This document shows positions 16,898 through 37,129 of a stretch of 58,783 nucleotides of DNA, in pieces; positions within the stretch are counted from its first letter, which is position 1, and each line of letters opens with the position of its first letter. The translations under genes were made by a program, and so were the position numbers. This DNA comes from Aeromonas media (GTDB lineage Bacteria; Pseudomonadota; Gammaproteobacteria; Enterobacterales; Aeromonadaceae), in contig NZ_CDBZ01000176.1 in the NCBI RefSeq assembly GCF_000819985.1, forward strand, positions 1 to 58,783, read 5' to 3'. The notes below the pieces were generated by a model that was not told the origin of the DNA, ran no database searches, and was given only the letters and a program-made list of their open reading frames with translations.

Positions 16898-16974
16898 TGG
16901 TGCGCCCGAGAGGATTCGAACCTCTGACCACCTGGTTCGTAGCCAGGTACTCTATCCAGCTGAGCTACGGGCGC
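16898..16974 (-). tRNA. tRNA-Arg (anticodon ACG), copy 1
   Basis: 77 bases with encoded CCA. Acceptor GCGCCCG / CGGGCGC, anticodon stem CCTGG with loop CTACGAA, T loop GGTTCGAATCC. The A of ACG is normally edited to inosine, reading CGU/CGC/CGA. By eye it is identical to the other four copies. It is the last gene of the minus-strand cluster. Confidence 0.96.
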
Positions 16975-16999
16975 TCATCAACTTTTGGTACTGCTAAAA

Positions 17000-17076
17000 T
17001 GGTGCGCCCGAGAGGATTCGAACCTCTGACCACCTGGTTCGTAGCCAGGTACTCTATCCAGCTGAGCTACGGGCGC
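17000..17076 (-). tRNA. tRNA-Arg (anticodon ACG), copy 2
   Basis: Same 77-base sequence as copy 1, offset by 102 bases. The 25-base spacer resembles the next one, which points to tandem duplication of the unit. Confidence 0.96.
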
Positions 17077-17101
17077 TCACAAACTTTTGATACTGCTAAA
17101 A

Positions 17102-17178
17102 TGGTGCGCCCGAGAGGATTCGAACCTCTGACCACCTGGTTCGTAGCCAGGTACTCTATCCAGCTGAGCTACGGGCGC
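17102..17178 (-). tRNA. tRNA-Arg (anticodon ACG), copy 3
   Basis: Same 77-base sequence, 102 bases from copy 2. The spacer to copy 2 (TCACAAACTTTTGATACTGC) is nearly the same as that between copies 1 and 2. Confidence 0.96.
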
Positions 17179-17204
17179 TCATAAATCTTTGATTTCACTT
17201 TAAA

Positions 17205-17281
17205 TGGTGCGCCCGAGAGGATTCGAACCTCTGACCACCTGGTTCGTAGCCAGGTACTCTATCCAGCTGAGCTACGGGCGC
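17205..17281 (-). tRNA. tRNA-Arg (anticodon ACG), copy 4
   Basis: Same 77-base sequence, 103 bases from copy 3. It is the first gene after the internal terminator at 17298-17322, which lies only about 17 bases before its 5' end. Confidence 0.96.
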
Positions 17282-17297
17282 TCTGATTTAAAGCGAT

Positions 17298-17322
17298 AAA
17301 AAAAGCTTACTCAACAGTAAGC
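17298..17322 (-). terminator. Terminator inside the tRNA-Arg cluster
   Basis: Perfect 7-bp stem GCTTACT / AGTAAGC with a GTTG loop and seven T on the minus strand. It lies between tRNA-Arg copies 5 and 4. A loose -35/-10 pair (TTGAGT, 17 bases, TTAAAT) overlaps it and could restart transcription for copies 4-1. Confidence 0.8.
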
Positions 17323-17379
17323 CTTTTCTAGCGTACCGACCTGCCGACGGTCGATACATGACTCATCGTGAGTCTAATA

Positions 17380-17456
17380 TGGTGCGCCCGAGAGGATTCG
17401 AACCTCTGACCACCTGGTTCGTAGCCAGGTACTCTATCCAGCTGAGCTACGGGCGC
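17380..17456 (-). tRNA. tRNA-Arg (anticodon ACG), copy 5
   Basis: Same 77-base sequence as copies 1-4. It lies four bases after the tRNA-Ser 3' end, so the two are surely co-transcribed. Confidence 0.96.
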
Positions 17457-17460
17457 AAAA

Positions 17461-17553
17461 TGGCGGAGAAGGGGGGATTCGAACCCCCGATGCGGGTATA
17501 AGCCGCATACTCCCTTAGCAGGGGAGCGCCTTCAGCCTCTCGGCCACCTCTCC
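17461..17553 (-). tRNA. tRNA-Ser (anticodon GCT)
   Basis: 93-base class II tRNA with encoded CCA. Acceptor GGAGAGG / CTTCTCC, anticodon stem CTCCC with loop CTGCTAA, a long variable arm and T loop GGTTCGAATCC. It reads AGU/AGC. Its place between csrA and the tRNA-Arg genes is the same as serV-argVYZQ in E. coli. Confidence 0.95.
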
Positions 17554-33876: not shown

Positions 33877-34146
33877 CCGCTATCCTGTTATTAGATCTAA
33901 GGGTGGTAGTTGTGGGTCTGTTTTTATGATTTTTTATTATGAAAACCGAATATCTGGGTTTTAGACCCAAATACTTACAAAAAGTTCATCACGATATGCA
34001 CGAAACTCACATTTTATGCATAACCTTCTCGCATGGGCAGAAATGATCGCCTTTTTCAGCCAATTTTTTCTATTTTTAAGAACCAAGTCCGGTTGCGTTC
34101 ACCCCCGGGCGGCCAGATGTTGCAAAAACATTTCCAGGGAGTGGGT

Positions 34147-35445
34147 ATGTCATTGGCAAGATTGTTAAATGTAATCATTCTAATCCTGTTCGCCATAGGT
34201 GCCATCCTGCTGCTCATGCTGGAGATCACCACGGTACGGCAATCCATCCTCGATCAGATGTCGGCCAACTTGGAGACGGCCATCACGGCACTCGGCCTGG
34301 TGCTGCAAGGTACCCTGCTCAACGACGACAAGGTGCTGGCGGAAACCATCGTCAACGCCATGTTCGATGGCGGTTTCGTCAGCTCGGTCACACTGCTGGA
34401 TCCCGATGGCCAGTTGCTGTTCCAGAAAGTCTTCCACACGGCCCAGCAAAATATTCCCGTCTGGCTGCCGACTGTCGTCCACATGCCACCGGTCAAGGTC
34501 GAGCAGGAACTCACCGATGGCTGGCGCATTCTGGGCACCCTCACCCTCGAAGGACACGAAGGGTATGCCTACCAGCACCTCTGGAACGCCATCAGCCGCA
34601 CCGGGCTGGCACTGCTCGCGGGTCTGCTAGTATTCACTCTGGTCATCACCTGGGTGTGCAACCGCCTGTTGCGCCCTCTCGAACAAGTCAGCCTGCAACT
34701 GGTGCAGATCCGCAAACGCCAGTTCAGCGGTACTCTGCCAACTCCATGGCTTCGTGAGCTGCAGGAGGTCGTGGCTTCCATCAATCAACTGGTCTCCGAG
34801 CGTAAACGAGATCTGCTGCAGCAAAGACTCAAGATCACCCAGCTCGGCAAACATGACAGTCTTCGGGCTCATCAGAAACTCACTGGGTTGACCGACATCG
34901 CCAACGGCATGTATCTGCAACACTTTTTCTCCACTCAAGGACACATCCGACTGTATAGCCGGTTGCTGCCCAAGACCCCCCCCACCACAGACAGCTCGCC
35001 GGATGAAATCCGGACGCTGATCCACGACTGGCTGACCCAGAAGACGGAAGGGATCCAGCTCCCCCTCAGCCTGCTCAATCATACCGACTGGACACAGTTT
35101 TCATCCTCCTTGGCCAGCGCCAGGGGAAAAATTCTGGACTGGCGCGGGGATCTGACAAGCTTCCCTCCCATGGCTGAGGAGCGTCTGGGTGCACTTCAGG
35201 CTCTGGGGATCGAGATGGCATTCAGCAATGTGCCCATGAACAACGACAACCTGACAAAGCTCGACCCCATCAAGCCAGTCTTCATCAGTTGCCAGCTGAC
35301 TCAGGCCCCCCTCTACTGGAACCTGCTTTCCCAGTGCCTGCATGCCTCCGGCTATACCCTGCTGGCAGAAGCCGGTGACATCAACGACGTGGACACCCTG
35401 CGCAGTTGGGGCATCGATGGCTATGCCAGCCAGGAGGCATCATGA
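34147..35445 (+). CDS. LapD-like inside-out c-di-GMP receptor lacking the GGDEF domain
   Basis: 432 residues. It has a first membrane helix (residues 5-25), a LapD_MoxY-type periplasmic domain (about 26-150), a second helix (about 153-171) and a HAMP-like segment (RLLRPLEQVSLQLVQIRKRQ). A short stub, KLTGLTDIANGMYLQHFF, matches only the opening of a GGDEF domain. A strongly degenerate EAL domain then runs to the end (IRLYSRLLP, LPLSLLNH, GYTLLAEAGDINDVDTLRSW). Trp126 in LTDGWRILGTL corresponds to the LapD Trp that grips LapG. True LapD has about 650 residues, so about 140 of GGDEF are missing. The start has AGGGAGTGGGT upstream. Its stop overlaps the next ATG. Confidence 0.8.
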   Translation: MSLARLLNVIILILFAIGAILLLMLEITTVRQSILDQMSANLETAITALGLVLQGTLLNDDKVLAETIVNAMFDGGFVSSVTLLDPDGQLLFQKVFHTAQQNIPVWLPTVVHMPPVKVEQELTDGWRILGTLTLEGHEGYAYQHLWNAISRTGLALLAGLLVFTLVITWVCNRLLRPLEQVSLQLVQIRKRQFSGTLPTPWLRELQEVVASINQLVSERKRDLLQQRLKITQLGKHDSLRAHQKLTGLTDIANGMYLQHFFSTQGHIRLYSRLLPKTPPTTDSSPDEIRTLIHDWLTQKTEGIQLPLSLLNHTDWTQFSSSLASARGKILDWRGDLTSFPPMAEERLGALQALGIEMAFSNVPMNNDNLTKLDPIKPVFISCQLTQAPLYWNLLSQCLHASGYTLLAEAGDINDVDTLRSWGIDGYASQEAS

Positions 35446-36383
35446 AACTCCCCATCCTATTGCTTGCCCTGCTGTGGCAGCCCAGTCTGCACGCAGTATC
35501 CGTGACCATTGGCACGGGAGGAGAACAGGGCATCTATTACCAGGTCATCAAGGAATTCTGCCGGCTGGCTCACAAGAGCGACCCCACAGTGCAGTGCAAA
35601 CCGCAGGCCAGTTCGGGCTCCATCGAAAATCTACGTCTGCTGCAAGCCGGAGAGATCCCCTACGCCCTCGTCCAGTCTGACTGGCTCTATCAGGCCAGTC
35701 AGGGCACGGGGCCATTTGCCAGGCAACCCCAGCCCGAATTGAGAACCCTCTTTGCCACCCATGCCGAGCCTTTCACCATAGTGGTGCGGGCCGATGGCGA
35801 TATCACCACTCTGGAGCAACTCAAGCTGGCCCCCATCGACATGGGGCTGAAGAATTCGGGTACCCGTCAAACAGCATTGGCACTGTTCAGCGTGCTGGGG
35901 GCAAAGGAACAGGATCTCGATCTGAAGAGCGTGGCCAATCTATCCGAAGCCTTGTGCAGCAAACAGATCGATGCCTATGGACTAGTGATGGGTCACCCCA
36001 ACCGGATCGTGCTGGAGACATCCAAGCGCTGTGCCATCCGTTTCATGTCCGTCGAGGGCGCAATCCGGGAGCAATTGTTGCAAGGCGTCAAATATTATCA
36101 GCGCAGTCAGATACCGGCCCGCATCTATCCCGGCAATCTGAAAGCCACCCCCACCTTTGCCATCGCCGCCACTCTGGTGACCAATGCCATCACGCCGGAT
36201 AAGGATGTCTATCGCCTGACCAAGGCGATGCTGAGCCAGCAGACCAGCTTCAACGAGCAGACCTATGGCTATGCCAACCTGTTTCACAAGGCGCGCAACA
36301 AAACAGGCCCGGTGCTCAGCGTCACTCAGCATCCGGGGGCAGCGAGGTATTTCGAGGAGTTGAAAGCCGCAGGCAAGCTATAG
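35442..36383 (+). CDS. TAXI family periplasmic solute-binding protein
   Basis: 313 residues. A signal peptide (MKLPILLLALLWQPSLHA) is followed by VTIGTGGEQGIYYQVIKEFC, the opening typical of TAXI proteins, the binding subunits of TRAP transporters for dicarboxylates or amino acids. Further family features are ASSGSIENLRLLQAGEIPYA and SVANLSEALCSKQIDAYGLV. Its ATG overlaps the TGA of the LapD-like gene (ATGA), with AGGAGG upstream, so translation is coupled. No TRAP membrane subunit is nearby. Its 3' end overlaps the convergent lapG-like gene by 6 bases. The context suggests a sensing role with the LapD-like protein; this is inference. Confidence 0.85.
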   Translation: MKLPILLLALLWQPSLHAVSVTIGTGGEQGIYYQVIKEFCRLAHKSDPTVQCKPQASSGSIENLRLLQAGEIPYALVQSDWLYQASQGTGPFARQPQPELRTLFATHAEPFTIVVRADGDITTLEQLKLAPIDMGLKNSGTRQTALALFSVLGAKEQDLDLKSVANLSEALCSKQIDAYGLVMGHPNRIVLETSKRCAIRFMSVEGAIREQLLQGVKYYQRSQIPARIYPGNLKATPTFAIAATLVTNAITPDKDVYRLTKAMLSQQTSFNEQTYGYANLFHKARNKTGPVLSVTQHPGAARYFEELKAAGKL

Positions 36384-37052
36384 CTGGCGACGGGGAGCAC
36401 GCAGATGCTCGCTGGAGAAGCGGCTCTGCATCGACGTCCACTGGGTCAGGCGATCAGCACTCCCGGCCAGGGTTCCCTCACGACGTGACTTCATGACCCA
36501 GATGCTCTTGGCATCGAAACTGTACACGGGTTGCAGATCGTTGCGCTGGCTGCCGGGCAGGATACGGCCGTTGATGTTGTCCAGCACCAAGGGATCGGAC
36601 TTGGTCGTCGGGAAGTAGAGCGTCACCATGTGAAACTGGTTATAGCGGATCGCCTTCACATAGGCCAGCCGCAGTTTCTTCTCGTCGACGCCGAGTTCCA
36701 TCAGGGTGTAGTACTTGGAAATGCTGTAATCCTCGCAGTCCCCCCCCCTGGCCCCGATAAATTCCAGCGGATTGGCCCAGTAGTCCTCATCTCCCCATAG
36801 CCTGGGATCCTCACTGTAGGTCAGATTGTTGAAGTAGTTGTTGACCAGTTCCAGCTTCTGCTGATCCGTCGTACCCGCTCTGGGTGTGAGCAGGCGTGAA
36901 AAGGCCTCGGCGCGCTGGATGGCCCGGGCACCATACACTTCCTGCATTTTGACCTTCAGCTCAGGGCTGGCAAGGTGCTCGGAGAGGCGGGAGGCCTGCA
37001 CGTTGGCACTCAACACTACCAGCGTGCAGGTGGGGACAAGCAACCATCTCAT
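36378..37052 (-). CDS. lapG: LapG-like periplasmic cysteine protease (transglutaminase-like)
   Basis: 224 residues with a signal peptide (LVPTCTLVVLSANVQA, cleavage after residue 20). The catalytic triad is visible as Cys106 in ARGGDCEDYSISKYYTL, His141 in YNQFHMVTLYF and Asp158 in LVLDNINGRI. The His-Asp spacing is the same as in Pseudomonas LapG. LapG cuts large LapA-type adhesins off the cell surface unless LapD, loaded with c-di-GMP, holds it. The ATG at 37052 has GGAG upstream. It converges with the TAXI gene. No LapA-type adhesin is in the window. Confidence 0.88.
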   Translation of the reverse strand: MRWLLVPTCTLVVLSANVQASRLSEHLASPELKVKMQEVYGARAIQRAEAFSRLLTPRAGTTDQQKLELVNNYFNNLTYSEDPRLWGDEDYWANPLEFIGARGGDCEDYSISKYYTLMELGVDEKKLRLAYVKAIRYNQFHMVTLYFPTTKSDPLVLDNINGRILPGSQRNDLQPVYSFDAKSIWVMKSRREGTLAGSADRLTQWTSMQSRFSSEHLRAPRRQL

Positions 37053-37129
37053 AACTGACACTCCATATCAGACGCTGGAGGTCAGTATAGTTGGCCGCGG
37101 CTACCCCATCGGGCAAGCCTGGGGGTGAC

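Follow-up and report, generated by a model that had tools for sequence, protein, structure and literature searches.

The window analyzed here is a stretch of 58,783 nucleotides from Aeromonas media (contig NZ_CDBZ01000176.1, one whole contig of the 233-contig assembly GCF_000819985.1), and it carries a compact module of three genes encoding a shortened LapD-like protein (LapDs), a solute-binding protein of the TAXI family, and a LapG-type protease (LapG2). LapD and LapG form the textbook example of inside-out signaling, in which cytoplasmic cyclic di-GMP (c-di-GMP) decides whether a periplasmic protease cuts an adhesin. The features of the module are as follows:

34147 to 35445, forward strand: lapDs, LapD-like, 432 amino acids (aa), PF16448; the mechanical open reading frame (ORF) starts at 34033
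34522 to 34524, forward strand: codon for W126 of LapDs, the residue equivalent to the Trp that anchors LapG
35442 to 36383, forward strand: TAXI-family periplasmic solute-binding protein, 313 aa, TIGR02122 and PF16868; signal peptide by eye
36378 to 37052, reverse strand: lapG2, LapG-type cysteine protease, convergent, PF06035; ATG start, with a GTG at 37061 also possible

The stop codon of lapDs and the start codon of the TAXI gene overlap in the sequence ATGA at 35442 to 35445, and the 3' ends of lapG2 and the TAXI gene overlap by 6 bases. An earlier note on this DNA had described the three genes as one compact unit, with an ATGA overlap and a LapG-like protease converging on the pair. Its description is borne out on each of these points, and the unit recurs in the genus, in a sister genus (g4), and in another family (f13).

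Of the Aeromonas loci, 25 were fetched by name, including one from an uncultured metagenome-assembled genome. All three genes were found in the same layout in 24 of them, of which that from A. molluscorum has a stop inside lapDs; in the 25th, from A. piscicola, the contig ends inside lapDs. Among the 75 genomes of the family sample, a short LapD with an adjoining module TAXI is present in 35 of 37 Aeromonas genomes (lapDs being split over two contigs in G020), and neither gene was found in G009 or G029. The possibility raised in the earlier note that TAXI genes lie beside lapD only in this strain is thereby refuted. Where both frames are whole, the lapDs/TAXI junction is an overlap of 1, 4, or 8 bases or a gap of 2 bases. 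In g4, a LapD beside a TAXI gene with a convergent lapG was found in two of three genomes, the third being 65% complete; the lapDs frame is broken in G061 (71% complete), lapG lies 648 bases away in G063, and the g4 loci lack the neighbor genes seen in Aeromonas. No LapD-TAXI adjacency was found in g2 (1 genome), g3 (23 genomes), or g5 (11 genomes). A second, divergent TAXI gene lies directly upstream of lapDs in G006 (L063, 2732 to 3643).

In an order-level sample of 394 genomes, module-type output domains scored 245 to 295 bits in 21 Aeromonas genomes and three genomes of family f13, and the other matches listed (E up to 1e-30) reached at most 118 bits in frames of at least 639 aa, a gap that is partly built in because the profile included Aeromonas and f13 members. 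In a class-level sample (369 genomes, 47 of them matching), the module type occurred only in the window's own genome, and the next best match scored 111.5 bits. Further short LapD frames among the matches listed are one of 341 aa (G180, contig C257) and two fragments of 195 and 193 aa in G056. Four candidates for additional modules were rejected. G239 and G784 have canonical loci with lapD in two frames, G648 has a canonical lapG-lapD pair running off the contig, and G670, which belongs to a different family within the class, encodes an isolated output-domain protein of 220 aa (L080, 4231 to 4893), with no recognized LapG or TAXI in the surrounding 9.5 kb.

The module is present in three of four f13 genomes, and its “LapD” there is a protein of just 179 to 180 aa, in which the output domain is enclosed by two hydrophobic segments and the second of these leads into a short tail with basic residues. 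The TAXI gene follows with a 1-base overlap in two genomes and a 2-base gap in one, and a convergent lapG lies beyond it; in G148, an unassigned 305-aa ORF stands between TAXI and lapG. We regard it as the most telling result that the part kept across families is the predicted LapG-binding half, with apparently nothing left in the f13 form to sense the cytoplasm. Because the cytoplasmic part is absent in these forms, signaling through it is not a general property of the module.

In the Aeromonas protein, a first hydrophobic segment is followed by a PAS-like output domain (residues ~28 to 150), a second hydrophobic segment, a weak HAMP region, and a poorly conserved C-terminal region (segments and domain borders here and in the f13 forms were placed by eye). 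The output domain is clearly recognized as LapD_MoxY_N (PF16448; E = 1.5e-32, 112.5 bits against a cutoff of 25). HAMP scored 16.5 bits against a cutoff of 25 and was listed in 11 of 25 aligned orthologues at E values up to 10, and no HAMP-like region was found in the f13 forms. These 25 orthologues (alignment A1) comprise 24 from the genus Aeromonas and one from g4; A1 takes in 21 of the 25 loci fetched by name, leaving out L018, L031, L036, and L038, of which L036, with its stop inside lapDs, and L038, truncated at the contig end, were omitted as broken. Neither in lapDs nor in the 25 orthologues was a GGDEF or EAL domain found by Pfam search (E up to 10, with filters that drop most matches above 0.1), and a Pfam search of the lapDs C terminus likewise gave no EAL. 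By hhalign, the last ~90 residues of lapDs align to the end of the EAL domain of canonical LapD (probability 86, E = 4.8e-6; the score of 50.1 compares with a maximum of 23.6 over 30 column shuffles and 10.6 on reversal), the only search in which this remnant was seen, and no family was recognized in the rest of the C-terminal region before it. Against the LapD equivalog NF045673 of NCBIfam, lapDs scored 93.6 bits, below the cutoff of 1020. Because no GGDEF domain and just the end of an EAL domain can be recognized, and because in one family there is no cytoplasmic part at all, the c-di-GMP input of LapDs has probably been lost rather than modulated, and with it, presumably, c-di-GMP binding. 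The “inside-out receptor” of the earlier note is not supported by this result.

The residue expected to anchor the protease has been kept. In a GWxQ loop, W125 of Pseudomonas fluorescens LapD and W126 of Legionella pneumophila CdgS9 are the main anchor of LapG (PMC4359373). W126 of lapDs is the same residue in all 25 rows of A1 and all 11 of alignment A4, which, like the LapD tree described below, uses the first open part of the broken G061 frame (L062). Within the loop, G and W are present in all 15 module rows and Q is replaced by I or M in all 15; loss of the Q was rejected as a module signature, since the residue is also missing from 7 of 12 canonical rows. Across 22 Aeromonas rows of lapDs, pairwise identity averages 0.91 in the periplasmic domain versus 0.63 in the C-terminal region. 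Ratios of nonsynonymous to synonymous substitution (dN/dS; 28 pairs from eight Aeromonas species) are 0.047 for the periplasmic domain, 0.116 for the second hydrophobic segment plus HAMP, and 0.152 for the C terminus of lapDs, compared with 0.084 for TAXI and 0.060 for LapG2. Every part of the module is thus constrained, and the periplasmic domain of lapDs is the most constrained.

LapG2 is recognized as a Peptidase_C93 protein (PF06035; E = 9.2e-14, 52 bits against a cutoff of 27), and the C-H-D triad is intact in all 25 LapG rows examined, including all 14 from modules. The phmmer matches of lapG2 include 4fgo (8.1e-44) and 4u65_E (5.3e-40), whose records read “Periplasmic protein” and “Putative cystine protease” and which we take to be LapG of L. 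pneumophila. Against NCBIfam equivalog NF045674, lapG2 scored 190.3 bits, under the cutoff of 320 (this genome's canonical LapG was not scored). A run of nine C at window positions 36740 to 36748 (nine G in lapG2) lies beside the catalytic Cys codon and is a possible slippage site; G runs in lapG2 likewise reach nine in A. taiwanensis and A. molluscorum, against a maximum of four to seven in the other loci compared.

The TAXI protein matches TIGR02122 (215.7 bits, cutoff 84.35) and PF16868 (NMT1_3; E = 2.1e-57, 195.4 bits, cutoff 27). Residues Y45, S75, Q93, H123, E125, and G156 of VcGluP, the TAXI protein of a Vibrio cholerae TAXI-TRAP system, correspond to Y32, S60, Q78, H107, E109, and G140 of the module protein. 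In this comparison, we infer that PDB entry 8s4j is VcGluP from its residue numbering, as an offset of 28 fits all residues named in PMC11574862, where Y45 and Q93 are the decisive residues of the glutamate site. Y32, Q78, H107, and E109 are present in all 16 module TAXIs examined, S60 is A in one of the 16, and the equivalent of H107 occurs in only 5 of 18 other TAXIs. This supports a predicted binding pocket that is intact in the module TAXI, with no specific ligand implied.

Trees of the three proteins were built from hand-chosen rows (34 TAXI, 25 LapG, and 27 LapD, using fewer than 21 of the 25 named loci, with TAXIs outside family f1 sampled only as module members), and long branches were flagged in each. 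Sixteen module TAXIs stand apart from 18 others (support 100/100), 15 module LapD output domains apart from 12 canonical ones (100/99), and 14 module LapGs apart from 11 canonical ones (84/100). The g4 pair and the f13 trio form subgroups in all three trees, and the Aeromonas rows group together in the LapG tree (99/100) and, with weaker support, in the TAXI tree (80/89). The genes lapDs, TAXI, and lapG2 are therefore a conserved unit with clades of their own, and a chance neighborhood is rejected both by these trees and by a layout and overlaps that are conserved across Aeromonas and also in g4 and f13.

The module is a second Lap set beside a canonical one. On contig C172 of the same genome lies a canonical operon, lapB-lapC-lapE-lapG-lapD, encoding a LapD of 641 aa, in which lapG immediately precedes lapD in the same orientation, unlike the convergent lapG2. 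Domain searches found two LapD-domain and two LapG-domain proteins in the genome, canonical operon included; therefore, the window module is not the organism's only Lap system. Canonical lapD is present in all seven module-bearing genomes whose canonical locus was read (G000, G006, G027, G063, G086, G110, and G148). The canonical lapG next to lapD appears to be truncated in G110 (L084, 3893 to 4153, an 86-aa ORF; tblastn covers only query residues 103 to 246), and the module lapG is whole. In G037, a divergent LapD of 650 aa directly follows lapB-lapC (L065, 5524 to 7476), and no lapG or lapE was recognized among ORFs of at least 100 aa in this 12-kb stretch.

The statement in the earlier note that no TRAP permease accompanies the TAXI gene holds for the locus but not for the genome. 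On the window's contig, a profile search found no match to DctM (DctQ was not searched for), whereas on contig C182 another TAXI gene adjoins a fused DctQM, the DctM part of which is a clear match (249.8 bits). Weaker DctM matches occur at four more places, among them contigs C113, C162, and C39, those on C113 and C39 passing the cutoff. A second orphan TAXI, of 458 aa and with a long Pro/Thr/Ala-rich tail, is encoded on contig C117 of this genome (L014, 2490 to 3866), and it groups with relatives from other Aeromonas genomes (L130, L136, and L137), outside the module TAXIs.

LapA-type retention modules were found in all 14 genomes searched, with three or four matches in each of nine Aeromonas genomes, one in a g4 genome, and one in each of the four f13 genomes; two of the matches in G009 are in one frame. 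The Aeromonas retention-module adhesins (L085 to L124) can mostly be assigned to three classes that differ in their xAAG sites, in open frames of up to 6110 aa. One class lies beside canonical lapD (on C172 in this genome), and two more lie elsewhere. These proteins, with their xAAG sites, are candidate substrates that LapG2 may cleave. A tie between the module and the class III adhesin (MAEL... start) was considered and rejected; this class is present in all seven module-bearing Aeromonas genomes searched but also in G029, and none was seen in G009. In the g4 genome G063, an 855-aa fragment 4 kb upstream of the module resembles, by eye, the final part of a large repeat adhesin.

Several known systems share elements with this arrangement. 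Like LapD-LapG of P. fluorescens and L. pneumophila (CdgS9), the module has a PAS-like output domain with the anchoring Trp, a LapG triad, and retention-module adhesins in the genome. Unlike them, its LapD shows no recognizable GGDEF and, of an EAL domain, just the end, or lacks a cytoplasmic domain altogether, and it is coupled to a TAXI gene; a canonical lapG-lapD pair coexists with it in this genome. In LuxP-LuxQ, a solute-binding protein, not of the TAXI family, docks on the PAS-type periplasmic domain of a receptor whose output is a histidine kinase. NspS-MbaA of V. cholerae combines a polyamine-binding protein with a GGDEF-EAL receptor, the periplasmic protein being encoded beside the inner-membrane receptor and believed to regulate attachment by docking on that receptor's periplasmic domain (PMC8079147); MbaA signals inward through GGDEF-EAL, whereas the module has no recognizable c-di-GMP domain and its output would stay in the periplasm. 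The module protein shares its family and the key glutamate-site residues with the TAXI-TRAP protein VcGluP (PMC11574862), and BP0403-GltS of Bordetella pertussis offers a TAXI without an adjoining TRAP gene whose gene overlaps that of its proposed partner (PMC12344293). The partners of VcGluP and BP0403 are transporters, whereas those of the module TAXI are a LapD output domain and a protease.

In our best reading of these sequences, a periplasmic ligand acts on the capture of LapG. We propose, with somewhat better than even confidence, that the module is a second, c-di-GMP-independent Lap switch located in the periplasm, in which TAXI and its ligand control the capture of LapG2 by LapDs. LapDs would sit in the inner membrane, and its PAS-like periplasmic domain would capture LapG2 through the conserved Trp, as canonical LapD does. 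The cotranslated TAXI protein would replace the lost GGDEF-EAL input, and that it took over this input role is the simplest account of the pairing. It may bind a small periplasmic solute, to judge from the pocket glutamate or a similar amino or carboxylic acid, and would then dock on the output domain of LapDs and thereby determine whether LapG2 stays bound. Once free, the protease would cleave one or more LapA-type giant adhesins at their retention module, releasing the cell. As to direction, our guess by analogy with NspS-MbaA is that LapG2 is held and the adhesin kept when the ligand is present and that the adhesin is released when the ligand is gone. As the receptor output, the holding of LapG, would itself be periplasmic, no cytoplasmic step or second messenger would be needed, and the membrane-output-membrane forms of 179 to 180 aa would be the minimal version of such a switch. 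The wider proposition, that a LapD output domain freed of c-di-GMP was recruited by TAXI into a purely periplasmic, ligand-gated protease switch for giant adhesins, we consider an even bet. The TAXI-LapDs contact, the ligand, the direction, and the substrate are all inferences.

Other explanations need to be weighed. LapDs might always hold LapG2, with TAXI acting as a chaperone or stabilizer without ligand gating and with control exerted by expression. Such constant capture needs no replacement for the lost cytoplasmic input, and a P. fluorescens chimera with a hyper-biofilm phenotype was read as a case of constitutive LapD-LapG interaction (PMC4359373); still, we think this sink unlikely, as the pocket Y, Q, H, and E kept in every module TAXI, together with purifying selection, would be unexpected if a ligand were irrelevant. 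We find it distinctly unlikely that the short LapDs instead tunes the canonical system, by forming mixed dimers with canonical LapD or by competing for canonical LapG, with LapG2 an exchangeable partner. The presence of canonical lapD wherever its locus was read in module-bearing genomes fits this idea, as do the mixed-species complexes of output domain and LapG reported in PMC4359373, but module LapG and LapD outputs are separated from their canonical counterparts in the trees, a protease is already supplied by the module itself, and cross-talk leaves the TAXI gene unexplained. In G030 and G061, which also bear the module, the short LapD is the only one seen, though these genomes are 80% and 71% complete.

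That TAXI serves uptake, through the genome's TAXI-TRAP permease or another carrier, and is linked to lapD and lapG by operon co-regulation only, seems to us very unlikely. In its favor, a DctQM, with its own TAXI, is encoded elsewhere in this genome, and a TAXI protein has been linked to another carrier, GltS, in Bordetella (PMC12344293), but the module TAXIs form a clade apart from the TRAP-linked TAXI. Moreover, the module TAXI stays paired with the LapD output domain where the rest of LapD is gone, and the pairing recurs in three genera with different neighbors. The purifying selection on the C-terminal region of lapDs (dN/dS of 0.152) would suit inward signaling by TAXI through LapDs to a cytoplasmic partner of the EAL remnant; the f13 forms stop right after the second hydrophobic segment, so this would not be a general function, and we hold it to be highly improbable.

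Some observations weigh against the periplasmic switch that we favor. The same selection on the C terminus of lapDs means that this region may act in the cytoplasm. The pocket Y, Q, and E are also present in all 18 other TAXIs and hence say little about the module protein, and Y200 and M201 of VcGluP are not conserved in it. At only 84, the bootstrap of the module LapG clade falls below the value that the tree program takes as secure, and in the module LapD tree the basal branching of G006 and G027 is not settled. In G006, lapDs and TAXI are not accompanied by a lapG; just 451 bases separate TAXI from the start of the contig, and by eye they resemble a fragment of a transposase. No adhesin gene adjoins the module in Aeromonas, nor do the adhesin classes track its presence, G029 having class III without the module.

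The module is flanked on one side by a divergent Csd3/M23 peptidase gene with an OapA-type LysM domain and on the other by ZnuA, with ZnuC- and ZnuB-like genes beyond (by eye). The nearest named relative of the lapDs gene is in A. rivipollensis (94%). Elsewhere in the window, five tRNA-Arg genes (anticodon ACG) form an array at 16898 to 17456, followed by a tRNA-Ser gene at 17461 to 17553.

The view of the earlier note that no system with this layout has been described agrees with our full-text literature searches, whose coverage excludes most subscription papers. They returned no paper on LapD, LapG, and TAXI together, nothing on Aeromonas with “TAXI family TRAP,” and nothing on LapD_MoxY. 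PMC12077191, on an RTX adhesin of A. hydrophila, describes LapD/LapG for P. fluorescens, and LapD is not mentioned in the TAXI protein text of PMC5812351. The module is thus a real and conserved variant of the Lap system, undescribed by these searches.

Overall, the conserved core of this variant is the periplasmic half of LapD-LapG together with a solute-binding protein, which suggests that attachment may be set directly by a periplasmic molecule. The proposed switch would provide a role for a TAXI protein that has no transporter next to it, would help explain why Aeromonas keeps two versions each of LapG and LapD alongside about three giant adhesins, and would offer a small system for learning how a binding protein controls protease capture. 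If it is true, a signal from outside would keep or release giant adhesins while bypassing the cytoplasm and any second messenger.

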